63,444 nucleotides of DNA from a virus. Position numbers and translations under genes: made by a program. The stretch lies in IMG/VR virus record IMGVR_UViG_3300044846_000637, positions 1 through 63,444 of that record; one strand, 5' to 3'. Every line of letters begins with the position of its first letter. Within the stretch, counting starts at the first letter, position 1. Positions 48 through 63,007 of the stretch are shown one piece after another. The notes beneath the pieces are model-generated. The model did not search any database. It was not told where the DNA came from and saw only the letters and a program-made list of their open reading frames with translations.

Positions 48-532
48 AGTACCCTGACACGCAAGATGTTCGCTCCAAGTTCCGTATCAAGCTCCATGTG
101 AGCCAAGTACCGGCAGGTGACTTCCGGACCGGCGGCATCGCAAACGCTATCGCTGAAGACTTGAAGAATCATTACGAGCGCCAGACCAAGGACATCATCG
201 ACGCTGTGATGAACGATGCGACCAACCGACTCATCGAGATTGCCGAGCGCCTACAGAATGCCTGTACCGAGGCCAACGCAGACGATGACGGCAAGGTTCG
301 CCGCAAGAAGATTTACGACAGCACATTCACACAAGCCAAGGAGATATGCGAGACCATTCGTAACTTCAATCTGACAAACAACACTCTGCTCGACGCGGCT
401 GTGGACCAACTTGCAAATACATTGCGCGATGTAACCGTGGAGGAGTTACGTGAGAGTTCATACACACGCAGTGAGGTACGCGAGAACCTCGACGAGATGC
501 TGAGCAAGTTCAAACCAATCAAGACTTACTAA
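2..532 (+). CDS. DUF3150-like protein, C-terminal part (gene crosses the contig joint)
   Basis: The frame is open from base 2 and continues the gene that starts at 63021; joined, they encode about 302 aa. The segment has no catalytic motif; it is rich in helix-forming charged residues in its second half (roughly IAEDLKNHYER onward). The identification as DUF3150 rests on overall look and on position directly before a MoxR-type ATPase and a metallopeptidase-VWA gene, a setting I associate with this family; function is unknown. A plausible role is adaptor or substrate of the MoxR machine. ATG at 32 is an internal methionine, not the start. Confidence 0.5.
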   Translation: MSDAAFKQGDMFDRSEYPDTQDVRSKFRIKLHVSQVPAGDFRTGGIANAIAEDLKNHYERQTKDIIDAVMNDATNRLIEIAERLQNACTEANADDDGKVRRKKIYDSTFTQAKEICETIRNFNLTNNTLLDAAVDQLANTLRDVTVEELRESSYTRSEVRENLDEMLSKFKPIKTY

Positions 533-550
533 TTCACCCACCCCTGAAAC
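531..550. promoter_or_regulatory. Degenerate GTTTCA/TGAAAC hairpin before the MoxR gene
   Basis: AATTCA (531-536), loop CCCACCCC (537-544), TGAAAC (545-550). Only the inner four base pairs remain complementary, but the loop is identical to that of the perfect copy at 62314-62335. It ends 14 nt before the ATG at 565, the same spacing as in other copies, so a role at the ribosome binding site is inferred. Confidence 0.5.
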
Positions 551-4575: not shown

Positions 4576-5505
4576 ATGAGCATCATTTCAACCTTTGCAC
4601 GTGACAACGTGGCTGAGATACTTAGCGAGGACAACATTCATCGAGTGGAACTCAAGAAGCTGGTTCATGAGTTCTGTCACGCATACAACTTGCGTGTGAT
4701 CAATGTGGCAAACATCAACTCCCGTAGAGAGGTGGCGCGTCTGGTCACAGACGGCGGTATAAATTGTGGTTCGGTCTCGGTCGAGTACGAGGGGGATAAC
4801 AAATATACTTACCGCGCATCTTTTAATACTATCAATAAGGATAAGGCCAGCGCCAAGTCAGAACGTAATGTGAGAGACTCTAACAAGATCAGTAATCTCA
4901 TTCGCGCAATCAAGAAGAACAAGGAAGAACCAACGGAAGAAGCCCTTGTTAAATCAATGCGGCGCGATATAACTTCTCCGTTCAATTCAGTAGAGAGTGA
5001 TTTAAGGTATGGTGGCCCAACCATAGCACTACCGCAGGACATGCAAAAAGCAGTAATGAATTTTGTTTTGGGTATTGACACTGTTGGAATGAATGCGTAC
5101 ATTGACGACCTCAAAGCCATACACAGTAAATATCAGTCGGAGATTAAGTCACATGAAGAAAAAACTTCAGACAGTAAACGCTTCAAGCGAGGCGCAACGG
5201 TGATCGGGCACGTAGCACAACACATTTCGGACCCGCACTATCTTGTCGCGGATGTATCGATGGGCGACGATGGTATGTTTACGTTTCACACCCCCCTGAA
5301 ACGCTACGACACTCTCAAGGAACTATCGATTGCCCCGGTGGTCATGATGGTAAATACCTTCATGCAAAGCAGACCTGACTACAACCGGGACAACGAGTTC
5401 GGCTTATCGGTTCGGGACAAATACTATCCTGAGCTGGATATATCTACGGGGTACACATCGCACAACAATCCTTTCTGGATAGCCATCCCCAAAGAGGCTC
5501 CATGA
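4576..5505 (+). CDS. Hypothetical protein with HEFCH motif, 309 aa
   Basis: ATG 4576 follows acggagaaaacg and is preferred over the upstream alternative start at 4504 inside the previous gene. Residues 31-35 read HEFCH in KKLVHEFCHAYNL, formally HExxH, but no third ligand region is obvious, so a protease call is not made. The middle is Lys-rich and probably helical. A perfect inverted repeat (5282-5303) lies inside the coding sequence. Function unknown. Confidence 0.75.
   Translation: MSIISTFARDNVAEILSEDNIHRVELKKLVHEFCHAYNLRVINVANINSRREVARLVTDGGINCGSVSVEYEGDNKYTYRASFNTINKDKASAKSERNVRDSNKISNLIRAIKKNKEEPTEEALVKSMRRDITSPFNSVESDLRYGGPTIALPQDMQKAVMNFVLGIDTVGMNAYIDDLKAIHSKYQSEIKSHEEKTSDSKRFKRGATVIGHVAQHISDPHYLVADVSMGDDGMFTFHTPLKRYDTLKELSIAPVVMMVNTFMQSRPDYNRDNEFGLSVRDKYYPELDISTGYTSHNNPFWIAIPKEAP
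5282..5303. repeat. GTTTCA/TGAAAC inverted repeat inside a coding region
   Basis: CGTTTCA (5282-5288), loop CACCCCCC (5289-5296), TGAAACG (5297-5303): a perfect 7-bp stem. It has the same arms and C-rich loop as the leader copies near 61.4 and 62.1 kb. Here it encodes FHTPLKR, so it is either under dual constraint or a scattered repeat. Confidence 0.7.
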
Positions 5506-14786: not shown

Positions 14787-15116
14787 ATGCCACGGAAGTT
14801 CAGCCCTCAACTGCTGGATAGCATAGAGAATGCCGAGGACAGCCTTGGTATTTCTCTTGCCCGTACCTGCCTCAAGGCAGGGCTTCCCGCATCTTACGCC
14901 GCCCCTATGCTGAAAGTTTCACGCATGACGTTGCACACTTGGTTTCGTGGCGGTGTTATCCGGAAATCTAGGACAGGGCAACTTGAACAGTTCATCAGTT
15001 TTTTAAAGGACGAAATTCATTCGGGGGTGCTACCTAAGCCGACCCTGAAGCAAACGCTGGAGTACGCTGAAGACTTTGCTGGTCGGGCTATTCAAGCGAA
15101 TAAAAGCGCGGCCTAA
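14787..15116 (+). CDS. Helix-turn-helix protein, 109 aa
   Basis: Starts at the base after the previous stop. Residues about 25-60 (RTCLKAGLPASYAAPMLKVS, then RMTLHTWFRGG) give a HTH with a WFRGG recognition-helix end, as in phage regulators. It may control early genes or help replication start. A strong hairpin follows its stop. Confidence 0.75.
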   Translation: MPRKFSPQLLDSIENAEDSLGISLARTCLKAGLPASYAAPMLKVSRMTLHTWFRGGVIRKSRTGQLEQFISFLKDEIHSGVLPKPTLKQTLEYAEDFAGRAIQANKSAA

Positions 15117-18046: not shown

Positions 18047-18248
18047 ACCCGCGCCAGTAGACGAGCCTGAGTGGGTGTTCCCCTACGAATTTATGAACGT
18101 AGGGGACAGTTTCTTTATACCCACAATGCGCCCGTCCCATATGGTCTACATCATCGACGTAACCTCAAAGAAAGTTAAAGTCAAGATGAAGGCGTACCCT
18201 AGCCACAAAGACAATGTTCTTGGGGTTAGGGCGTGGCGTATCAGTTAG
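18027..18248 (+). CDS. Hypothetical protein, 73 aa
   Basis: ATG 18027 lies inside the end of the primase gene; TTG 18021 is an alternative. Small and beta-rich in appearance (FMNVGDSFFIP..HMVYIID), no known domain. Its stop overlaps the stop of the late operon's last gene on the other strand, so both transcription blocks meet here without a spacer. Confidence 0.65.
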   Translation: MSKKPIEPAPVDEPEWVFPYEFMNVGDSFFIPTMRPSHMVYIIDVTSKKVKVKMKAYPSHKDNVLGVRAWRIS

Positions 18249-21200
18249 GGCTTAACTTCGTACGCCTCAAACATGTTCAAGAGGTTGCGTTTTACAAGGT
18301 TCTGCGCCTGAACAGTGTTTTTCACAAGCTCACTACGCTCTTTAGGTGTCAGCCCTTGCATGCGGCGGTAGACGTTTGCTTGTTCCCGCAGGTCGCGTAG
18401 TGTCCCGTTGACTTGTTTGTCGTACGAATTAACCAACGCTATATGCAGGGGGTTGTCTTCTACGTAATCAACGTACCGGTCGGGGCTTTTGGCCTTAAGC
18501 GAGTTAAGTCTTTTCTTTATGTCCAAAATTTTATTCTCAACATTTGAGAACTCACGAGCGTCTATGTTGGACGGAGCGCCAAAGAAGCTATCAAACATAA
18601 CAGTGTCGGTCTTTGGATTGAACTCTTTGTCCCCCGCAGCTACCATACCAATGTTCATTGCGCCAGCGCCCAGACGGGATACGCCATCCAGATAGTTGTT
18701 AGCAAAGAAATAAAGCGTATTTGGGCTTATGTCGATACCACCAGTCGTGGCTTCATACAACGCGCGTGCCGCAGACTTATACATTTCAGGGATGTTGTCA
18801 CCCCCTGTGTACGCATCACCAAATCGTGACTGACGGTTGTTGTAAATCTCACGGCCCAGACCATCCAAGTTCATAGTCCACTCAAGGAAGGGGCGCAAAA
18901 CGCTCGGCAATGCTGAGTCCATCAACCACGCGGCTGGCTGATCCATAGGATTGATACGCGAGACAGGCAAAGGCAGGAACGAGTCCATGCCAATAAGTGC
19001 CGTGTTAGTCAGCGCATCTTTTATAGATGTATTACCCATGCCGACAGAAGCCATTTGCGCCCCCGCCGCTGCAAACGCACCAAGACCAAAGCCCCAAGGC
19101 ATCTGGAATATGACATCCTTACCCAGTATTTCAAAATGGAATCGTGCGTAGCGCGACCAACGCGATGCGTCATCAGTAGCCACTTTGTTGCGCCCTTGAT
19201 CGTCATCGTCAGCCAACATGTAGGCCATACCATAGATCGCTGCCCCCATACCCAACAACCCCAGAGTCATAGCTTTAGCAGCATCGTGCTGTTTCTTGTA
19301 CTCGGCTTTGAATTTCTTTACAGCTTCTTTGTCATTACGCACACTCAAAGGCAGATCGGCCATTGCTGATTCTTCGCCACGGAACATAGGTTCCAACGCC
19401 TCAACCGCGCGAACAGCGCCAGTAGCAGCGGGCCGGAAGAACATGAACATTGCACCAGCAGCGCGGCCCCACTCGCCCACTTGTTCAAAGTTAGCCAGAT
19501 TCTTTGCGTAGCCAGCGGCTTTCTTAGACGCCTCACTCGCGCTCATACCTTGCGCCGTGAACTGCGACTTAGTGATCTCATACGCAGCAGTACGGCTAGC
19601 CAATTCAAACATGTCGTTCCAGATGTCTAGAACCTTATTGACAGCAGCCCCGGCCTTTTGCAGCTTGTTGCTAGAAAGATCGCGCTGAAGTTCTTGCTGT
19701 TGCGACTTGGAAGAGATTCCCTGCAAGTACGACACCTTACCGCCGATTTGGATGTACTCGTACATCGCGGCGATATATGGGTCCTTCTTGGCCAGACGTG
19801 CGATCTCGTCAAACTTACCAGTCTCATACAGACGGGCAACCTTTAGAGCCTTGAACATGCCACCGTTTACCACTTTGGCAGCAACAGCACCAATGTATTG
19901 CGCAGCAACTTTGGGCCCCATTTCAGCGCCCAACATAAAGGCGTTGGTCAGCGCATCGCGCACAAAGTTCATTGGAGCAAATGCCACGTTGTAGCGCGTG
20001 TGCATCTGACCCATCTTGCTAGTCAACCAGTTCAGCCCGTCAATCAACGGTTGAGAATCTTGATAAGTGCGCTTGATAGCTTCGCGCTGGTCTCTGTCGC
20101 TCAACTGAATGACATCAATCGTGCCGTCCGGGTTGTAATGGAACACAAAGTTTGGGCCGGTTATCGGTACTTCGTTGTTGTCGATCTTGACCGTCATGTT
20201 TGGAATACGCTGGCGGTCTGCAAACGGGATGTTTTTAGCCACCACGGAGCCATACAACAGCTTGTCTTCAACCGCATTCATGATGGACAGAGTTACGTCC
20301 TTGCGTCCAGCACGCATGGCGGCTCGCGTGGCATCCACCATAGACTGAATCAAAGAGTTATCGGCCTCAGTCTCACGACCTTCAAACGGATTCTGGGATT
20401 CCTGATAGTCCTTACCGGTGCGGGGGCCGCTGAAATCCAACAGCTCGTCATTTTTTCCAATGTAGTGTTGTCTACCTTTAAGGGGGATGTAGTTTTCCCA
20501 GCCATAAAAGTCCACAACGCTTTGCACAGGCTTAGACCAGTAGTTGGATTCTTTATCCAACTCACGCGTGGCTTTATGTAGCCCTTGCATCGCCTTCATT
20601 GCAGCGTCTACTACGCCTTTGACTTCTGGGGTGTAAAGGTCTTTTTTAAGTTGCTCAATCACTGCGGGGGAGTGTTCACCTACTACGTTGTAATCTTTGG
20701 AGTCGCGGTCAACAGATGTATAGCCGCTTGGTTCAGCGCCGTTGATACCCGAAAAACCCGTGGGGTCAGCGTACTTGGCCACAACATCGTTCAGCGTAGT
20801 ACGTAATTCTTTGATCTGACTTACGTTCAGCTTACCAGAGAAGACGGCGTCCATTGCGCGAATACGGAACTCAGAAGGAGCAATGTTAAGAGTAGTGCCC
20901 CCCGGCAGTGTGATGGCTTGCTTGTCTTTGTTCAGCGGTACATTGAGCATGTACTTCACATCACGGCGCTCACCCTCGTGCATCGCCATTCCAATGACGT
21001 GCAAGTCACGCGCGGCTTCCTCAATCGTTTTGCCTGTTTTCTTTGCGTAGTCATTGATTGCTTCGCGCAGTTTGGCAGCGGACGGCTCAACACGAGTAAG
21101 GAATAAATCTCGCGCAATACCAGAAGACCGCACGATTGAGTTGTAGACCGCGTTTATTTTTGGGCCGTCAAAAATAACCTTACCGGCACGCACGGCAGCG

Positions 21201-24200
21201 TCTTCAAGACGTTTGATAGCGTCACGGCTGTTCTGAAACTTCTTCTTAAGAAGGTTGTACGCTTTGCGAGTCGTGTATTGTTCCCGAATCTTAGAGACCG
21301 TGGACAGCGTAGGTAGCGCGTTACTCTTAAGAACGTCTTCAGTAGTCGAAGATAAATCTTCCGCTTTTTTCCGTTGCTGTTTTGCAGGTAGTGGGGCGCG
21401 TTCAATCCGTTCTGTGGACGGAGTGGCGATTGACTCAAACGCTTGAAAGATTTCAAGCAACGCACTGCGCGCTTCGTAGTTGGTTTTCTGTCCCTGAAAC
21501 ATCTTATTGGTCAGGCCAAGGACGCCAAGCACGCTGTTCATAAATTCAGACCATGCTGATTTTATTTCAGGCAGGATCGTCGGCAAGGTAACTATCTTGT
21601 TCCCTTGTTTAGCGTCTAATTTGACGTTATCCAAAGCTTCTTGGAAAAATTTATCTGTCAACGCATAAGACACAAACTCAAGCAAGTTTTCAAACGCATC
21701 GGGGTAGCTGTCCCCCAACGTGTCACTTGCGCGGTCCATCAAATCCTCAAGCATCTCAGCAGCTTCGATCTGTGCCTCAGTCAACCCTTTGAGGTTGCCC
21801 TTCTCATACTGGTCGAGCACTTTGACGGTAGCGGCGTGCACAAACTCGTGCAGCAGAATCGCATCGGTTAGACCTTCTGCCGTTACATAGATAGTGTCGG
21901 TCTTAGGGTCGTACTCAGCAAGACGACCTTTAGGCAGATTTTCTACGTACTCAATTTTGGTCTTCAGCTTAAGGTTAAAAATTACTTGCGCAATTGCACG
22001 CTGCAACTTGTTCTTAGCTTGCGTACGCAGGTAGTTCAGCACGTTCTCAGTGTTACCAGCTTTGACTTGTTTAGCCGCCTCGCTAGGTATAAATGCGTCA
22101 CGCTTGATGCGTTCAACGGGAGAGGTAGGGCCATCTCCTTCTTCCGCCTTACGTTGATTTTGTTTACGCTGCTCTTGCGCCGCTGCAATTTCGTTTTGAG
22201 CTTTCTCGTAGGACTTGAGCTCAGTCTCTTGCAGCGCGGATTTTTCGTCTGTTCTTTGCGCACCCCTACGTTCACTGATTGAACGCGCTAGATTGCCAAA
22301 CGCCGCGTCAATGTTCTCTACAGTAGGGTCGATGGTCTTGCCGTTCTTCTTACGGTACTTCAGGTCTTGTTTAAACTTAGCTTTTTCATCGGCAGTAAGT
22401 TCAGAGTATGGTGGCAGTGACAAGCCTGTCTTTTTGTTGTACGCAGTGCGCTGTGTCTCGTAGAGACCTTCTTCACGGTTGCCTTTTACTTCGCCAGTTG
22501 ATGTACGCTCTTTTCTAGCGGTGTAGCGATTCAACGCTTCCAGCGCTTTTTGACGCCCCAACGGAGTAATTTGACCAAGCTCGTTGGTGGTCAGATTATC
22601 AAGGTACACACGCTTCTGATCAGCAGTCAGCCGGTCCCACTCACGCAACTGCTCACGCTTTGCATTCAGTGCGTCAAGCGTTGCCTTCAACTGCGCCGCG
22701 CGTTCGGCTTCTGGCACTACATCTGTATCTTGCTCGCGCTTGAGCACGCTGTCTGAGTCAACGCCGTTGCGCTCCAGCATCTCTTCAAGTGCGCCAAGCT
22801 TCTCGCCTTCCCAGCCGAACTGTGGCGACAAGTTACCCTTCTCGGCTTCTTCAATGAAGTTTTGCGCGTCGTCATCGTAGACAACGGTTTTGCGTTCTTC
22901 ATTAAACTTCTCACCAATCCGTTTTTCAGTTTCAGCAAGTTGAGCATCTATTTCGTCTTGCTGGATGTCACGCAGATCAATCCCCAACGCTTCAGCTTGT
23001 ACCTTGCGTTTGTTAAGAAGTTCTTGGCGCGGCTCAGTTATTGTTGTTCCGGTTGCTGCTTGCGGTTTTTTCGGTTTTGTTTCGACGGTTTCAGCGGTTT
23101 TAGTGCCACTTGTGGTCTCCGTTGGTTGGATTATTGCAGGGGTTGTTGATCCTTCTCCCGTAGCAGACACTGTAGCATCCGTTCCAGTAGAAACCACTCC
23201 ATCTCGTTTAAGTGTTTCAGTTCCTGCGGTGGTGGAAAGTTCGTCGGCTGTAGGTGCAGATATTGCAGCGCCGACTCCATCTGCGTCTGTGTCAGGTCCT
23301 GTAACATCTTCTTCTCCGGTAGGAGGTGCTTGGGTGAGCGCATCGATCTGTGCTTTTACTTTCTTTTGCTTTTGCCTTTTATTGTTCAGCAAGCCCCGCT
23401 CTTTGTTAGTCAAGCTAACACCACGAGCCTCCATCTCTTTGATTTCAGCTTCGCGTTTGTCGTAGTCAGCCTGCAACGCTTCCGCGTCTGGGCTAGTTTG
23501 TGGTGCGGGCTTGTCAGCAAAAAGATCGGCAAGAGAAGTAATGGCAGTTTCTTGTTCTTGGGTAGGGGTAGTCGTCTGATCTTGTTGCTGAGTAGTGTCA
23601 GTCGTCTGATCAACGCTAGTTTGGATATCTCTTGTAGGAGCGCGACCAGCCAGCAAACCAGCGCCACCACCCATACCAGCAGCGCCCAACGTGGCCATGG
23701 CAGCAGTTTGGCCCGTACCTGCCAGTAATTCGCGGTCGAGGCCAGCTTGCTGAGCAGCAACGTTTTGCGCAACGCGCCCGCCAACCTCTTCAATGTTCTC
23801 GCCGGGAATTTCTTTGAGACCAGTTACAACGCCTGTACCGATGCGGCCACCAGTAATCTTCTTACCAGCCAGAATTTCTTCCAATGCTTTACCACCGGGT
23901 AGGAATCTGTTGGCCAAGACAGACAGACCATATCCCGCTACACCCGCAGCCCGCGCCTTGTTAATAGTCTCTGCCGCTGCGCGTTCAGGAGACATCCCCG
24001 AGTCTGTAAGTTCTTTGAAAATTTCGTCGTATGCACCAGCACCTACATCAGCACCCTGCATTACAGCGCCAGTCTGAATAGCAGCGGTAGTACCAGCCTT
24101 GACAGCCTTCTGGGTAGCCAAACGCTTAGCAGCTTCTTCCGCTGCACCGCGCGCAGCGGCTGCGCTCATCACGCCCCGCTTGGCGATATAGCCAGCACCG

Positions 24201-24673
24201 CCGCCAGCCAAAATCATTGGTATGAGTTGAGGTACTTGTTCTGCGAGGAAGCTAGTGAGCAAAGCTGGGTCTGTAATTGTTTCTCCGAGGGCGGCCTTGA
24301 ACGCAGCAAACTGACCTTCTTTTTCGGCTTCTTCCACCTTTGTGGTACGAGCAGCTTCACGGGCCTTCAGACCCTTAGACTTCATTTCTTCACCGTATTT
24401 GGTGATGTCTTCCCCGAGACCCAATGAGCCAGTCTTAGAGAAATCGCCCGTGGCTAGACCGTAGAGCTGCCCCGGCAGTTGAACAAGGCTACCAACACCA
24501 GAAACGATGCCAGCACCAACGTCTTTAAAGGCTTCGCCAGTTGTACGTTCTGTAGACGGGGCCTGCGCTACGCTTTGCCTATGCGTGTAGTTTGCCCACT
24601 GCCAAGCTGTGTTGGGGTCCGGAGCGTCTACTTCGTATGTTTTACCACCAACATCTACTTCGTATGTGGGCAT
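18245..24673 (-). CDS. Giant polyvalent virion protein (zincin metallopeptidase and LPD38-like region)
   Basis: 2142 aa, last gene of the late operon. Residues 60-250 are Gly/Ala-rich with amphipathic or membrane-like helices (LIPMILAGGGAGYIAKRG). A long charged, Gln/Thr/Lys-rich region follows to about 900. A zincin motif HEFVH is at 942-946 (ILLHEFVHAAT), with NLLEFVSYALT downstream as likely third-ligand region. The stretch around 1680-1770 (FELASRTAAYEITKSQF, AKNLANFEQVG, FMFFRPAATG) matches large polyvalent protein-associated domain 38. Such proteins are packed in the capsid and injected with DNA to act on host targets. The N-terminal 30 residues (YEVDVGGKTYEVDAPDPNTA) are a common start module. 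Confidence 0.82.
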   Translation of the reverse strand: MPTYEVDVGGKTYEVDAPDPNTAWQWANYTHRQSVAQAPSTERTTGEAFKDVGAGIVSGVGSLVQLPGQLYGLATGDFSKTGSLGLGEDITKYGEEMKSKGLKAREAARTTKVEEAEKEGQFAAFKAALGETITDPALLTSFLAEQVPQLIPMILAGGGAGYIAKRGVMSAAAARGAAEEAAKRLATQKAVKAGTTAAIQTGAVMQGADVGAGAYDEIFKELTDSGMSPERAAAETINKARAAGVAGYGLSVLANRFLPGGKALEEILAGKKITGGRIGTGVVTGLKEIPGENIEEVGGRVAQNVAAQQAGLDRELLAGTGQTAAMATLGAAGMGGGAGLLAGRAPTRDIQTSVDQTTDTTQQQDQTTTPTQEQETAITSLADLFADKPAPQTSPDAEALQADYDKREAEIKEMEARGVSLTNKERGLLNNKRQKQKKVKAQIDALTQAPPTGEEDVTGPDTDADGVGAAISAPTADELSTTAGTETLKRDGVVSTGTDATVSATGEGSTTPAIIQPTETTSGTKTAETVETKPKKPQAATGTTITEPRQELLNKRKVQAEALGIDLRDIQQDEIDAQLAETEKRIGEKFNEERKTVVYDDDAQNFIEEAEKGNLSPQFGWEGEKLGALEEMLERNGVDSDSVLKREQDTDVVPEAERAAQLKATLDALNAKREQLREWDRLTADQKRVYLDNLTTNELGQITPLGRQKALEALNRYTARKERTSTGEVKGNREEGLYETQRTAYNKKTGLSLPPYSELTADEKAKFKQDLKYRKKNGKTIDPTVENIDAAFGNLARSISERRGAQRTDEKSALQETELKSYEKAQNEIAAAQEQRKQNQRKAEEGDGPTSPVERIKRDAFIPSEAAKQVKAGNTENVLNYLRTQAKNKLQRAIAQVIFNLKLKTKIEYVENLPKGRLAEYDPKTDTIYVTAEGLTDAILLHEFVHAATVKVLDQYEKGNLKGLTEAQIEAAEMLEDLMDRASDTLGDSYPDAFENLLEFVSYALTDKFFQEALDNVKLDAKQGNKIVTLPTILPEIKSAWSEFMNSVLGVLGLTNKMFQGQKTNYEARSALLEIFQAFESIATPSTERIERAPLPAKQQRKKAEDLSSTTEDVLKSNALPTLSTVSKIREQYTTRKAYNLLKKKFQNSRDAIKRLEDAAVRAGKVIFDGPKINAVYNSIVRSSGIARDLFLTRVEPSAAKLREAINDYAKKTGKTIEEAARDLHVIGMAMHEGERRDVKYMLNVPLNKDKQAITLPGGTTLNIAPSEFRIRAMDAVFSGKLNVSQIKELRTTLNDVVAKYADPTGFSGINGAEPSGYTSVDRDSKDYNVVGEHSPAVIEQLKKDLYTPEVKGVVDAAMKAMQGLHKATRELDKESNYWSKPVQSVVDFYGWENYIPLKGRQHYIGKNDELLDFSGPRTGKDYQESQNPFEGRETEADNSLIQSMVDATRAAMRAGRKDVTLSIMNAVEDKLLYGSVVAKNIPFADRQRIPNMTVKIDNNEVPITGPNFVFHYNPDGTIDVIQLSDRDQREAIKRTYQDSQPLIDGLNWLTSKMGQMHTRYNVAFAPMNFVRDALTNAFMLGAEMGPKVAAQYIGAVAAKVVNGGMFKALKVARLYETGKFDEIARLAKKDPYIAAMYEYIQIGGKVSYLQGISSKSQQQELQRDLSSNKLQKAGAAVNKVLDIWNDMFELASRTAAYEITKSQFTAQGMSASEASKKAAGYAKNLANFEQVGEWGRAAGAMFMFFRPAATGAVRAVEALEPMFRGEESAMADLPLSVRNDKEAVKKFKAEYKKQHDAAKAMTLGLLGMGAAIYGMAYMLADDDDQGRNKVATDDASRWSRYARFHFEILGKDVIFQMPWGFGLGAFAAAGAQMASVGMGNTSIKDALTNTALIGMDSFLPLPVSRINPMDQPAAWLMDSALPSVLRPFLEWTMNLDGLGREIYNNRQSRFGDAYTGGDNIPEMYKSAARALYEATTGGIDISPNTLYFFANNYLDGVSRLGAGAMNIGMVAAGDKEFNPKTDTVMFDSFFGAPSNIDAREFSNVENKILDIKKRLNSLKAKSPDRYVDYVEDNPLHIALVNSYDKQVNGTLRDLREQANVYRRMQGLTPKERSELVKNTVQAQNLVKRNLLNMFEAYEVKP

Positions 24674-59064: not shown

Positions 59065-59097
59065 TTGATACCAGTTATTTGTCGCCGCGTGCGTGGA
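59065..59097 (+). repeat. Inter-cassette repeat, copy 1
   Basis: Begins TTGATACCAGTTAT (59065-59078), a 14-mer found identically at 59890 and 60674, then TGTCGCCGCGTGCGTGG. Lies between terminator and promoter of the next cassette. Confidence 0.8.
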
Positions 59098-59143
59098 AGC
59101 GCGAGTGGCTGGCGCGTAACTTAGCTTTGCAGTCCCCGCTGAA

Positions 59144-59175
59144 ACTTTACATTATGGTCTAGGGTCAGCTATAAC
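59144..59175 (+). promoter_or_regulatory. Promoter of cassette 2
   Basis: ACTTTACA (59144-59151) gives -35 TTTACA; 18-bp spacer; TATAAC (59170-59175). The upstream TGAAAC half-arm of the hairpin family overlaps it (CCCCGCTGAAAC). About 60 nt of leader precede the ATG at 59237. Confidence 0.6.
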
Positions 59176-59236: not shown

Positions 59237-59842
59237 ATGAAAGCAACAAAGTCTCAGGGTCCATCGACCCTTTCGGTGTCTAGTCTCAAAGACGCTGGCT
59301 ATCAGTCAGCTATCAGCGGTGAACGTATGGACACTGTTGCACGCTTCGTGTTCGCTGAATGCCCCGGCTTCACTTCTGATGTGCCAAAAGAAGTGCTGGC
59401 TAGTCTGTCTGAAGGTTGGGCACTTCGCTGGCAAGAAATCAACCCTGCAAAGAAGTACACGACAGATTATGTGCCTTCTGACACTGGCAACATCGAAGTC
59501 AGTCTGGCTTTCTGTCTGTCCTATAGTCAGCAAGCCTTCGGTCAAATGAAGAATGAAGACCCGGTGAAACACTCGCTGATCAAAGGTGTTCGAGATGCCT
59601 TCAGCAAGTATCGTTCAAACCGTTTGTCTGATCTGAAGACAGCCGTTCGTAGGATTGAACGTGAGGGCGAATCGAAAACAAAGAATCCTACAAAGGGTTT
59701 CTCTGACTTCATCACCGACACTTTCACTAACATGAAAGCCAGATGTAAGACAGCCAGCGCACGCGGGGATGCTGAAGCCAGCGAAGTAAATCTGGCTGTT
59801 GCAATCGACGCCTTCAAGCGTGCTTATCACCGCGCTGATTAA
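59237..59842 (+). CDS. Unknown-family protein, paralogue A, 201 aa
   Basis: Closely related to the 192-aa protein at 60046: both share SFKDAGYQ/SLKDAGYQ, VARFV, ALRWQE(I/L)NPA, VSLA(F/Y)C(L/M)SYSQQAFGQ, KGVRD(A/K)F and (S/T)RCKTA-ARGD. The conserved Cys-Ser-Tyr-Ser-Gln block and basic helices suggest a compact helical protein, maybe nucleic-acid binding; no known family is recognised. It has its own promoter and terminator and so works as an autonomous unit. ATG follows cttggagtctttcaa. Confidence 0.82.
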   Translation: MKATKSQGPSTLSVSSLKDAGYQSAISGERMDTVARFVFAECPGFTSDVPKEVLASLSEGWALRWQEINPAKKYTTDYVPSDTGNIEVSLAFCLSYSQQAFGQMKNEDPVKHSLIKGVRDAFSKYRSNRLSDLKTAVRRIEREGESKTKNPTKGFSDFITDTFTNMKARCKTASARGDAEASEVNLAVAIDAFKRAYHRAD

Positions 59843-59857
59843 TCAGCCGTACCAACT

Positions 59858-59884
59858 GAAGGGGCCTTGTGCCCCTTCTTTTTT
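59858..59884 (+). terminator. Rho-independent terminator of cassette 2
   Basis: GAAGGGGC (59858-59865), loop CTTGT, GCCCCTTC (59871-59878), then TTTTTT. Textbook form. Confidence 0.92.
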
Positions 59885-59889
59885 GGCCT

Positions 59890-59931
59890 TTGATACCAGT
59901 TATATGTCTCCGCGCGTGTATGCGTGCGTGG
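59890..59931 (+). repeat. Inter-cassette repeat, copy 2
   Basis: TTGATACCAGTTAT (59890-59903) followed by ATGTCTCCGCGCGTGTATGC, nearly the same as copy 3. Confidence 0.85.
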
Positions 59932-59968
59932 TCAAGCGCATCGATCACCGATTCAGCATCCCGTGAAA

Positions 59969-59999
59969 ACTTTACTTATGGGCTTGGGTGTGGCAAAAG
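59969..59999 (+). promoter_or_regulatory. Probable promoter of cassette 3
   Basis: ACTTTACT (59969-59976) stands at the same place in the inter-cassette module as ACTTTACA in cassette 2, preceded by CCCGTGAAA. A -10 box is poor (CAAAAG at 59994-59999), so activity is less sure and may need an activator. Confidence 0.4.
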
Positions 60000-60045
60000 A
60001 ACATTACCGGATGACGTTTTGATTGTCCGGATTTTGGAGTTTCTT

Positions 60046-60624
60046 ATGAAAAAGCACAGCACAGTTGCATCCTTCAAGGATGCGGGTTACCAAGCCGCCA
60101 AGCATGGCGAAGGTATGGCGCAAGTCGCACGTTTTGTTCTTGATGAGTGCCCATCATTCCTTGATGGTGTACCCGATGAGGTCAAGGCTCAACTGCGTGA
60201 GGGTCAAGCATTACGTTGGCAAGAACTTAATCCCGCCATTCGGTACACAGCCGATTGGATTCCATCTAAGGACGGCGGGACTGAGGTTTCGTTGGCGTAT
60301 TGCATGAGCTACTCTCAACAAGCATTTGGGCAGCTCAAGAATGAGCACCCAATACAGCACAGCATCATCAAGGGTGTGAGGGATAAGTTCAACAAGTATT
60401 CATCCAACGTCATGGGTGATCTCACCAGAGCGGTTCGCAGGCTCATGTCTGAGGGCCAAGACAAAACCAAGTCCGCTACCAAGAACTACACAGAGTTCCT
60501 CAGTGATATGTTTGATTCATGCAAATCACGATGCAAAACAGCCCATGCCCGTGGTGACACATCCGCACCTAATGAGGTTGCACTGCGCCAAGCAATTGAT
60601 GCATTCTATGCACAGTTGAAGTAA
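60046..60624 (+). CDS. Unknown-family protein, paralogue B, 192 aa
   Basis: ATG 60046 follows TTTTGGAGTTTCTT; the long upstream frame is not used. Paralogue of 59237-59842 by the blocks listed there, but diverged by eye to around half identity. Own terminator with 10-bp stem follows. Two diverged copies kept side by side suggest different targets or variants; function unknown. Confidence 0.82.
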   Translation: MKKHSTVASFKDAGYQAAKHGEGMAQVARFVLDECPSFLDGVPDEVKAQLREGQALRWQELNPAIRYTADWIPSKDGGTEVSLAYCMSYSQQAFGQLKNEHPIQHSIIKGVRDKFNKYSSNVMGDLTRAVRRLMSEGQDKTKSATKNYTEFLSDMFDSCKSRCKTAHARGDTSAPNEVALRQAIDAFYAQLK

Positions 60625-60630
60625 CCACAC

Positions 60631-60665
60631 AGCCCCACCAGTCGCAAGATTGGTGGGGCTTTTTT
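60631..60665 (+). terminator. Rho-independent terminator of cassette 3
   Basis: AGCCCCACCA (60631-60640), 10-nt loop, TGGTGGGGCT (60651-60660), then TTTTT. Separates the cassettes from the origin region. Confidence 0.92.
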
Positions 60666-60673
60666 GTGGCCCG

Positions 60674-60711
60674 TTGATACCAGTTATATGTCTCCGCGCG
60701 TGTGTGCGTGG
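60674..60711 (+). repeat. Inter-cassette repeat, copy 3
   Basis: TTGATACCAGTTAT (60674-60687) then ATGTCTCCGCGCGTGTGTGC. Here no promoter or gene follows; instead the module leads into the iteron region via a GTTTCAC/GTGAAAT hairpin. Confidence 0.85.
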
Positions 60712-60729
60712 GCTAGGCGATGACTTAGC

Positions 60730-60749
60730 GTTTCACGGGTAGGTGAAAT
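60730..60749. repeat. GTTTCAC/GTGAAAT inverted repeat at the origin edge
   Basis: GTTTCAC (60730-60736), GGGTAG, GTGAAAT (60743-60749). Same arms as the early leader hairpins but with a G-rich loop. Confidence 0.65.
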
Positions 60750-60847
60750 TATTCCAAGATTCCAACCCTGTTTGGAACTGGAACGAGCTAATTGGAATTT
60801 TGGAATCAGGGCAAAACTTACAGAAAACTGGAATTTTTGCGTTTTAA

Positions 60848-60872
60848 TGTAAAGTGGGCCTATATGTAAAGT
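60848..60872. repeat. Two TGTAAAGT octamers
   Basis: TGTAAAGT at 60848-60855 and 60865-60872, 17 bp apart, the reverse complement of the ACTTTACA octamer in the cassette promoters. Another ACTTTACA lies at 61280-61287. Possible protein binding sites inside the origin. Confidence 0.5.
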
Positions 60873-61152
60873 AAAATTGGAATCGACTTTCTTCAATGAA
60901 ATCAAGTACTTACGAGGCAAAATTCCAAAATTCCAAAATTCCAATGGAATTTTAGTGGGGAGGAAACTTACAAAGTGATTTTGCAAAACCGGGATCGTTG
61001 AAGAGGCTCAGCAAGTGCGATGTCCAACAACGTCTGATTGAGTTGGGCAAAGTTTGGCTAAGTTCGCGCATATCCCCCCAAAGGCAGGCCCCTATTCAAA
61101 ACGCTTGGAATCTTGGAATTTTGGAATAACTCAAAAATATATATCTATATAT

Positions 61153-61173
61153 ACTACTACTACTACTACTACT
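61153..61173. repeat. (ACT)7 microsatellite
   Basis: Seven perfect ACT units directly after TATATATA-like sequence in the AT-rich part of the origin region. May mark easily melted DNA. Confidence 0.9.
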
Positions 61174-61330
61174 TAGTCTTTTCTTACCGTAAAAAGTATT
61201 CATTTCCACTTTCACCCCTACACACCAAAAAATTCCAACAAAACACCCGTTTTGGAACCAATTCCACCTTTTTTACCTAACTTTACATTACCCCCTTTCG
61301 CCACACCCCCAAAACCACGCCGCAACCAAG

Positions 61331-61339
61331 TTATCCACA
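61331..61339 (+). promoter_or_regulatory. DnaA box
   Basis: TTATCCACA, the perfect bacterial DnaA consensus, 140-220 bp from the iteron runs at 61105-61127 and about 50 bp before the next promoter. Confidence 0.7.
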
Positions 61340-61377
61340 CCCCAAGCTTCTGCCTCAACTACTTTTGCCCAAGAGTA

Positions 61378-61406
61378 TTGTATAATATGTAAAGTTATGG
61401 TATAAT
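61378..61406 (+). promoter_or_regulatory. Strong early promoter 1
   Basis: TTGTAT (61378-61383), 17-bp spacer, TATAAT (61401-61406). The spacer holds TGTAAAGT (61388-61395). Twin of the promoter at 62070: same spacer length and nearly the same spacer sequence. Confidence 0.85.
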
Positions 61407-61450
61407 TGAATTCTGGTTGGGGGAGAAGCCAGACAACACCGTTACTTACC

Positions 61451-61470
61451 GTTTCACCTCCCCGTGAAAC
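61451..61470 (+). promoter_or_regulatory. Leader hairpin before the 114-aa gene
   Basis: GTTTCAC (61451-61457), loop CTCCCC, GTGAAAC (61464-61470). It ends 14 nt before ATG 61485. The sequence TCACCTCC inside it equals the anti-Shine-Dalgarno end of 16S rRNA and could pair with the GGAG at 61475-61478 or with GGGGGAG in the leader (61420 region). A translational switch is inferred. Confidence 0.65.
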
Positions 61471-61484
61471 ATCTGGAGAAAATC

Positions 61485-61829
61485 ATGAAAGCAAAGTTCG
61501 TTATCGATTCATCTGCGGTTATCCGCAATCCTGCATTGCGTCCATACTTGCCCAGAACAACTCGCAAAGCATTGCGCGTTACGCCCCCGAAGGCACAGGT
61601 CAATCACGACTGCATCAACACACCATGCGTTGACCAGATCGTCACCGATTGGCTTGCCGTTCACGACCCCCTGAATGACAAGGCGTATCTCGCCACTAAC
61701 ACCATCGACCCATGCTTTGACTTTGACGAGTTCGGCGACATCGATAACGAGCTTGACGGACTGACAGTTCACGAGCCGATGAATGTTGTCGAGCTGTGGG
61801 AGTTCTGCACAGGCTACAACGTGTTGTAA
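61485..61829 (+). CDS. Hypothetical early protein, 114 aa
   Basis: ATG 61485 after CTGGAGAAAATC; the GTG at 61464 lies within the hairpin and is rejected. Pro/Arg-rich first half (RNPALRPYLPRTTRKALRVT), acidic second half (PCFDFDEFGDIDNELDGLTV). No known family. First gene after the strong promoter, so made early and abundantly. Confidence 0.75.
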   Translation: MKAKFVIDSSAVIRNPALRPYLPRTTRKALRVTPPKAQVNHDCINTPCVDQIVTDWLAVHDPLNDKAYLATNTIDPCFDFDEFGDIDNELDGLTVHEPMNVVELWEFCTGYNVL

Positions 61830-61840
61830 TCAAACAACAC
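61821..61840 (+). other. Hairpin at the end of the 114-aa gene
   Basis: GTGTTGT (61821-61827), loop AATCAA, ACAACAC (61834-61840), a perfect 7-bp stem over the stop codon, without T run. A second palindrome GTTAG-CAG-CTAAC (61860-61872) stands just before the next ribosome site. Confidence 0.5.
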
Positions 61841-61886
61841 GACACATACACCCCAATACGTTAGCAGCTAACAGGAGAGCTTAACA

Positions 61887-62045
61887 ATGGCAAAGAAAAT
61901 TACATTCAAAGAGGTGCCTGTCGGCACATCGTTCATCAGCAACGGGAACATCTGCACCAAGCTGTCATTGCGCACAGCGGTGCTTGTCCAGTACATGAGG
62001 ACGTTCTATTTCAGCAAGGACGAGTTGGTTGAGGTCGTGTCCTGA
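61887..62045 (+). CDS. Hypothetical early mini-protein, 52 aa
   Basis: ATG 61887 with AGGAGAGC ahead. Product ITFKEVPVGTSFISNGNICT looks like a small beta fold. Its stop is 24 nt before promoter 2. Too short for a family call, but start signal and position support it. Confidence 0.65.
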   Translation: MAKKITFKEVPVGTSFISNGNICTKLSLRTAVLVQYMRTFYFSKDELVEVVS

Positions 62046-62069
62046 CCCAACTATTTCACCCCAAAGCTA

Positions 62070-62098
62070 TTGTACAATATGTAAAGTTGTGCTATAAT
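62070..62098 (+). promoter_or_regulatory. Strong early promoter 2
   Basis: TTGTAC (62070-62075), 17-bp spacer, TATAAT (62093-62098), with TGTAAAGT at 62080-62087. From the -10 box to the hairpin is exactly 44 nt, as in promoter 1. Drives the operon that runs through the contig joint into the MoxR genes. Confidence 0.88.
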
Positions 62099-62142
62099 AG
62101 AGTCTGTGGTCGGGGAGCGAGTACGTAAGCCGATCACTCAGC

Positions 62143-62162
62143 GTTTCACCACCCCGTGAAAC
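62143..62162 (+). promoter_or_regulatory. Leader hairpin before the 112-aa gene
   Basis: GTTTCAC (62143-62149), loop CACCCC, GTGAAAC (62156-62162), perfect 7-bp stem. It ends 35 nt before ATG 62198, with a short direct repeat (GTTCATTCA twice) in between. Confidence 0.7.
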
Positions 62163-62197: not shown

Positions 62198-62536
62198 ATG
62201 GGCGCAGTCAAGACCGTATATACAGCATTGCTCGAGGCCGAGGCCAACGGGCACATCCACCCAACCATCGCACAAGCAATACGCGCGATGCAACCCCCAC
62301 CCGCACCGACTGACGTTTCACCCACCCCTGAAACGATGCCGACCTATGTCTATGCGCTGTACACAGATGGCGTGTTGCTTGATCTGTACATGTATCGCGA
62401 GACGGCGGACTACGAGTGCTACCTCTGCCGTATGGGTGAGGAGCAGTTCCGTGTCTACGACGAGGACGGAGACTTCCGCCGATACGAAGTGCGCGAGCTT
62501 ACTGTTCACACGCACAAGCCACACAACGCACGCTGA
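62198..62536 (+). CDS. Hypothetical early protein, 112 aa
   Basis: ATG 62198 after AAGGAGTCCATC; the GTG at 62156 belongs to the hairpin. N-terminal helix (KTVYTALLEAEANGHIHPTI), Pro-rich linker, then YVYALYTDGVLLDLYMYRET and a charged end. No family recognised. A perfect inverted repeat of the leader type lies in the linker coding region (62314-62335). Confidence 0.75.
   Translation: MGAVKTVYTALLEAEANGHIHPTIAQAIRAMQPPPAPTDVSPTPETMPTYVYALYTDGVLLDLYMYRETADYECYLCRMGEEQFRVYDEDGDFRRYEVRELTVHTHKPHNAR
62314..62335. repeat. GTTTCA/TGAAAC inverted repeat in the coding region
   Basis: CGTTTCA (62314-62320), loop CCCACCCC, TGAAACG (62329-62335), perfect 7-bp stem; loop identical to the copy at 531-550. 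It encodes part of the unstructured linker (VSPTPET). Confidence 0.75.
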
Positions 62537-62759: not shown

Positions 62760-63004
62760 TGCAAGACCGATGCAACGAAGATTACGAAGCGGGATTGAAA
62801 GCTGGCAAGCAGATAGTCATCCTCGCCAAAGAAGTGTATGGCAGACAGATGTTCTATCCCGTATGTGATACGTCACGCCTGTTCGCCGCTATTGCTGACC
62901 GAGCCACCCTGTCTGAGGTAAACGTCAGACGGATACGACAACTTGGGTACGAGGTGACAGTCACCCACCCCAAGCCAATCAACATCGATTTCACCAACCC
63001 CTGA
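62756..63004 (+). CDS. Hypothetical protein, 82 aa
   Basis: Starts at ATGATG (62756 or 62759) in overlap with the zinc-finger gene. NEDYEAGLKAGKQIVILAKE and LSEVNVRRIRQLGYEVTVTH suggest a small alpha/beta protein. No named family. The hairpin at 62988-63007 covers its stop codon. Confidence 0.7.
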   Translation: MMQDRCNEDYEAGLKAGKQIVILAKEVYGRQMFYPVCDTSRLFAAIADRATLSEVNVRRIRQLGYEVTVTHPKPINIDFTNP

Positions 63005-63007
63005 ACT
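62988..63007 (+). promoter_or_regulatory. Leader hairpin before the DUF3150-like gene
   Basis: ATTTCA (62988-62993), loop CCAACCCC, TGAACT (63002-63007); five of six arm pairs fit. It ends 13 nt before ATG 63021, the same place as the copies before 565 and 61485. Confidence 0.55.

Follow-up and report, generated by a model that had tools for sequence, protein, structure and literature searches.

Locus and genome context

The window, that is, the whole stretch of DNA analysed, is the 63,444-nt virus record IMGVR_UViG_3300044846_000637. The record is complete-looking, with ends overlapping by 47 bases (one mismatch). Genes for terminase, portal, DNA polymerase, helicase, primase, a MoxR-like ATPase and a vWA-type protein are present. 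A 2142-aa protein (18245-24673) has an LPD38 (large polyvalent protein) domain near the C-terminus. No integrase and no prophage relative were found; the phages form a large uncultured group that is probably lytic. GTDB genomes searched with MoxR for a host gave no relative. Related phages were gathered with the MoxR-like protein as 80 loci, in which gene order is conserved.

Short inverted repeats (dyads) stand before early genes of this phage. The promoter-linked dyads fall into two cassettes, A and B, and the window phage has at least five operator-bearing cassettes. Their features are as follows.

61378..61406, + strand: sigma-70 promoter of A1, TTGTAT-17-TATAAT with extended -10 (TGGTATAAT), assigned from sequence
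61412..61433, + strand: 5' leader stem-loop H1 of A1, stems changing in relatives
61442..61448, + strand: AT box of A1, TTACTTA, directly 5' of the dyad
61452..61469, + strand: dyad (putative operator) A1, TTTCAC-CTCCCC-GTGAAA, upstream of gene 61485-61829
62070..62098, + strand: sigma-70 promoter of A2, TTGTAC-17-TATAAT with extended -10
62106..62137, + strand: 5' leader stem-loop H1 of A2
62144..62161, + strand: dyad (putative operator) A2, TTTCAC-CACCCC-GTGAAA, upstream of gene 62198-62536
59067..59078, + strand: GATACCAGTTAT box of B1, kept in relatives, directly 3' of terminator-like hairpins; other copies at 59892-59903 (B2) and 60676-60687 (B3)
59127..59144, + strand: degenerate dyad B1, TTGCA-GTCCCCGC-TGAAA, abutting the -35 hexamer, upstream of gene 59237
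59146..59175, + strand: promoter of B1, TTTACA-18-TATAAC, directly 3' of the dyad
59237..59842, + strand: orphan protein of 201 aa, candidate dyad reader, preceded by a B cassette
59951..59968, + strand: degenerate dyad B2, ATTCA-GCATCCCG-TGAAA, upstream of the gene ending at 60624
60731..60748, + strand: dyad B3, TTTCAC-GGGTAG-GTGAAA, bordering an origin-like non-coding region
62134-62140, 60721-60727, 59117-59123 and 59941-59947: AT box equivalents

Cassette A (dyads 61452 and 62144) consists, in order, of an extended -10 sigma-70 promoter, the 5' leader stem-loop H1, AT box, dyad, ribosome site and gene. Cassette B (dyads 59127, 59951 and 60731) consists of a terminator or GC hairpin, the GATACCAGTTAT box (conserved; also written GATACCAGTTATnTGTC), a CG/TG-rich tract, AT box and dyad, followed in B1 and in most relatives by a -35/-10 promoter and then the gene. 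Immediately before B2 and B3 lie the window terminators at 59858-59878 and 60631-60660. By prediction the B dyads fall after a terminator and before the next promoter, and so outside mRNA.

A GATACCAGTTATnTGTCnnCGCG box followed by an alternating CG/TG-rich tract occurs after terminators at 59067-59103, 59892-59928 and 60676-60712, and is kept in most relatives even where the dyad differs. The stretch 60749-61400 is non-coding, with 39% G+C and 14 copies of TTCCAA/TTGGAA against about 0.5 expected from the window average. Iteron-like and adjoining dyad B3, it is probably a replication origin; relatives have TTCCAA-rich stretches at the equivalent place.

Form and frequency of the dyad

The unit is a rigid 18-bp dyad, TTTCA-N8-TGAAA, and not a loose hairpin family, because a spacer of 8 far outnumbers all others: in 11 close genomes it occurs 42 times and no other spacer up to 40 more than 6 times, and over all relatives the counts are 91 and no more than 12. 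The longer-armed form GTTTCA-N(4-14)-TGAAAC has four matches in the window (5283, 61451, 62143 and 62315), 0.07 being expected from shuffles. Exact TTTCA-N8-TGAAA sites start at 5284, 60731, 61452, 62144 and 62316, and one-mismatch dyads at 532, 59127, 59951 and 62989. With at most one mismatch allowed, 18 sites are found in the window; mononucleotide shuffles gave a mean of 1.4 and a largest value of 6. All seven stretches listed in the earlier note are present and the repeat is real; the list had missed the degenerate dyads at 59127 and 59951, and two of its members (5284 and 62316) lie inside genes.

The AT box (consensus TNANTTA) spans positions -11 to -5 ahead of the 16-bp core, and its last base, at -5, is A in 84 of 84 related sites. 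In the window, full dyad and good AT box are joined only at positions 60732, 61453 and 62145, besides one chance match at 1260, within a gene. Arms are symmetric in all 72 distinct sites, and pairs 3-5 are strictly Watson-Crick with zero G-U; the finder prefers arms with Watson-Crick pairing (at least 4 of 5) and needs T/C-C at positions 2-3, a bias that touches the G-U absence and the arm statistics, equally within and between genomes. Perfect 16-bp palindromes spanning the centre occur in several lineages (TTCGGGTCGACCCGAA, ATCGGATCGATCCGAT), as would be expected of a DNA dyad. The N6 centres vary both within and between genomes. The loops had been described as generally C-rich; this does not hold, since dyad 60731 is G-rich on the + strand and the centres of 61452 orthologues flip from CTCCCC to GGGTGG, GGGTAG or GGTACG.

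Position relative to promoter and start codon

In cassette A the distance from the -10 box to the dyad centre is 52-55 nt in 33 of 41 cases, despite very different leader sequences; in the other eight it is 67-108. The distance from dyad to start codon ranges from 14 to 41 nt across relatives. A constant distance to the ATG, proposed earlier, applies to three window copies (14-15 nt) and fails for 62144 (36 nt) and for the relatives; what is fixed is the distance to the upstream promoter, not the position before the ribosome site. In cassette B the dyad-to-(-10) distance varies among lineages, mostly within 14-35, and TTCAC-class dyads lie immediately next to the -35 hexamer.

Dyad A1 contains TCACCTCC, which had been pointed out as an anti-Shine-Dalgarno match. 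It is present in the window and in relative L033, but absent from the 61452 orthologues of L034-L041. An anti-Shine-Dalgarno role was accordingly rejected, and the match is probably incidental.

Lineage comparison

About 33 related IMG/VR phages retain the cassettes, with a half-site that depends on lineage: TTCAC, TTCAG, TTCGG, ATCGG, GTCGG, TCCAC or GTCAG. The orthologous site of A1 is found in L033-L041, and with half-sites TTCGG/ATCGG in L103, L105, L057, L055 and L053. In these last phages, whose MoxR is about 68-70% identical to that of the window, the same four places carry TTCGG-N6-CCGAA (L103, L105 and likewise L057) or ATCGG-N6-CCGAT (L053, L055). The half-site is GTCGG in L062 and TCCAC in L059 and L075. 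Copies A and B share the half-site of their lineage within one genome in the TTCAC, ATCGG, TTCGG, GTCGG and TCCAC lineages.

With the palindrome finder, arms differ at 0.54 of 10 positions within a genome (n=116) and at 2.66 of 10 between genomes. For A against B sites the values are 0.65 within and 2.72 between. None of 2000 permutations was as low as the within-genome arm difference, a count that is not a true probability because the phages are related. Arms alike within genomes and different between them form the pattern of operators tracking one trans-acting protein. The covariation check suggested earlier thus revealed compensatory changes between phages, not arms changing without compensation; the same compensatory changes are seen in copies outside any predicted transcript.

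Candidate readers

The gene-59237 family is the best, though unproven, candidate reader. It is an orphan early family present as tandem paralogues (59237-60624) with 58% identity, each of which has a separate copy of cassette B. Distance between half-sites correlates with distance between gene-59237 proteins with rho 0.72, 0.73 when MoxR is controlled for and 0.70 when the mean of six core proteins is controlled for. Against A sites only, rho is 0.81, compared with 0.09 and 0.50 for the site-adjoining genes g62198 and g61485. When the window's proteins were scanned over 25 genomes, gene 59237 ranked first; on 91 shared pairs, exonuclease gene 10766 reached 0.72, gene 13487 0.68 and gene 59237 0.67. 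The protein is helical (model pLDDT 89.7). No match supporting DNA binding was obtained in Pfam, NCBIfam, PHROG, PDB or viral folds, fold searches with the model returned only noise, and weak profile matches to Rab1 were judged to be chance. The gene is absent from the isolated phages of the collection searched.

A helix-turn-helix (HTH) protein of 109 aa (14787-15116), whose recognition-helix region is nearly constant, is conserved in 17 of 25 related records. As reader it is the poorer candidate and was rejected: rho is near 0, and it is not an obvious reader because that region is nearly the same in TTCAC and TCGG phages, that is, across operator classes. A conserved sequence, for instance the GATACCAGTTAT box, might be its target.

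Leader stem-loop H1

Stem-loop H1 has a median z of -2.7 across 50 distinct leaders. Its stems change and are G-U-rich, and the 5' strand is G-rich. Unlike the dyad, H1 does look like an RNA feature; it may protect the mRNA 5' end and is a candidate mRNA-stabilising or regulatory RNA. No Rfam match was found for it. Kissing of the H1 GGGGA loop with the CCCC loop of the dyad, conceivable in the window A1 leader, was rejected, the pairing being absent from A2 of L033 and from L034.

Copies outside the promoter cassettes

532..549, + strand: ATTCACCCACCCCTGAAA, intra-operon, before the MoxR-type ATPase gene (565)
62989..63006, + strand: TTTCACCAACCCCTGAAC, before gene 63021, overlapping the preceding stop codon; same class as 532
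5284..5301, + strand: coding copy, altered in L032 and kept in L033
62316..62333, + strand: coding copy without AT box, inside gene 62198-62536, kept in near relatives L007, L015 and L033

Copies 532 and 62989 stand 14-15 nt before start codons, with a C/A-rich sense strand. They track the lineage arm changes only partly: before MoxR in L103 and L105 the left arm stays TTCAC, with CCGAA as the right half. Both copies could be operators that have degenerated or a distinct motif linked to translation, and a translation-related role may still be theirs. The coding copies 5284 and 62316 are retained only in the nearest relatives; 5284 is probably not functional.

In two relatives, TTTCA-N8-TGAAA with a central Shine-Dalgarno-like AGGAGG or GGGAG overlaps the next start codon (L036:7874-7891, L043:4597-4614), either by chance or as a second use of the motif. 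The palindrome GTTCAGGGGAGGGTGAAA at 2815-2832, inside the vWA-type gene and partly kept in about 10 relatives, may only reflect Gly/Glu-rich coding.

Interpretation

The dyad is probably a double-stranded DNA operator in early promoters, read by a dimeric, likely phage-encoded protein that would most likely repress. It is taken as a DNA dyad read by protein because the B copies are predicted to be untranscribed, arms change in concert and spacing is fixed to the promoter. Half-sites are two-fold symmetric, at fixed spacing and at several promoters per genome, as in symmetric repressor operators. The operator would comprise the symmetric half-site pair (TTTCA...TGAAA, spacing 8) and the conserved AT box TNANTTA on the gene-distal side. 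In cassette B, whose dyad overlaps the -35 region or lies against it, binding would occlude the promoter; in cassette A, where it lies near +47, binding would block early elongation. Repression is favoured because occlusion and elongation block together would explain both cassettes; the variable dyad-to-(-10) distance in B also fits repression better than class I/II activation. Perhaps it serves an early-to-middle switch.

If the gene-59237 family is the reader, it would regulate its own B promoter; autoregulation would follow from the place of gene 59237 behind a B cassette. A further, tentative possibility is that this family represents a new type of phage DNA-binding repressor, reading an AT-box-plus-dyad operator that recurs in several early promoters, among them that of its own gene, with a specificity that drifts together with the operators and forms immunity-like groups.

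Several other explanations were considered. The earlier note had proposed an RNA- or protein-controlled translation switch, or a small mobile repeat. A stem-loop of the mRNA leader, controlling translation initiation or mRNA processing, would agree with transcription of cassette A and of the two intra-operon copies, with their location 14-41 nt before start codons and with the compensatory arm changes between phages. It is nevertheless improbable for the promoter-linked copies: the B copies have these arms and the AT box as well but stand between terminator and promoter, so that by prediction only some functional copies are within mRNA; the distance is fixed to the -10 box and not to the ATG, the distance to ribosome site or start being unconstrained; the arms of all sites in a genome change together; pairs 3-5 have no G-U; loop sequence is unconserved and its strand character flips; and H1, whose G-U-rich stems change, already gives the leader another stem-loop. 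Rfam 15 gave nothing above the gathering score, and neither of two sub-threshold matches lies at the sites. The protein-controlled element with constant arms and changing loops is the part of the earlier proposal that the data support. Mobility, to which several near-identical copies in one genome could point, is scarcely credible for the promoter-linked copies, which recur at orthologous places in the promoters of tens of phages and show single-base drift there; the copies are for the most part not dispersed, additional repeats were not observed at their flanks, and instead of non-orthologous insertions with target duplication, as in MITE-like elements, positions are orthologous throughout.

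Two explanations retain a DNA site and change its reader or its effect. An activator, or an anti-pausing/antitermination factor needing a set distance to RNA polymerase, would account for the near-constant 52-55 nt in cassette A across unrelated leaders and for the TTCAC-class B dyad abutting the -35 hexamer, but the B distance varies by lineage (mostly 14-35) and is 67-108 in eight A cassettes; such a role is unlikely, while the near-constant A distance leaves room for a factor touching RNA polymerase. A host transcription factor whose specificity differs between phage hosts, in place of a phage protein, is rather doubtful. Half-site classes could mirror host lineages, and the phage HTH protein 14787-15116 is not the obvious reader; half-site distance, however, tracks one phage protein family far better than most, including the products of the site-adjoining genes. 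The operator read by a phage protein is preferred.

With this reading a vague hairpin before ribosome sites becomes a testable regulon whose candidate readers are few. In a single genome DNA dyads and RNA hairpins look the same; comparing lineages and finding copies predicted to be untranscribed can tell them apart.

Comparison with known systems

A literature search, limited in extent, found no description of the dyad motif. Lambda-type repressor operators are dyads of about 17-18 bp with invariant half-sites, overlapping promoters. The window dyads are alike in size, invariant half-sites and promoter overlap, and differ in being single per promoter and in including the +47 position; no cI/Cro-like gene was recognised in the window phage. 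N4-like phages have MoxR-like ATPase and vWA-type genes of a similar kind, and inverted repeats at early promoters are common to both. The promoter hairpins of N4 virion RNA polymerase have a 3-base loop, whereas the window dyads accompany ordinary sigma-70-like promoters. Promoters of an N4-like virion RNA polymerase were rejected, as no phage RNA polymerase was recognised and the 2142-aa protein has the LPD38 domain.

In L5-like (cluster A) mycobacteriophages, many repressor sites per genome (operators and stoperators) lie at and downstream of promoters, with orientation tied to transcription; the stoperator site is 13-bp, asymmetric and monomer-bound (PMC9283540). The window dyad is similar in its many copies of one site per genome, at and downstream of promoters, and in an orientation linked to that of transcription. 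It differs in being symmetric, not a 13-bp asymmetric site, and in being confined to the early region.

The closest known analogue is the extended start-associated sequences (ESAS) of cluster K mycobacteriophages, imperfect inverted repeats just 5' of a subset of non-structural genes (PMC3203893). The ESAS consensus differs by subcluster; its authors considered hairpins in the mRNA unlikely and proposed a DNA-binding protein whose specificity changes (PMC3203893). The repeats are 17-bp with a variable 4-13 bp spacer and go together with a 13-bp SAS located at the start codon (PMC3203893). Both systems have inverted repeats before several early genes and a consensus varying by lineage. The window dyad differs in its half-sites of 5-6 bp, fixed spacing, AT box and promoter-fixed position, and no ESAS-type GGGATAGGAGCCC SAS motif occurs in the site alignments. 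Lineage-specific inverted repeats before early genes (ESAS) and multi-copy repressor sites (stoperators) are thus already known; the dyad has the sequence features that define neither the one nor the other. This group of uncultured phages, in which about eight operator half-sites can be distinguished, is a natural data set of a regulator and all its operators shifting specificity together, the question that ESAS left open.
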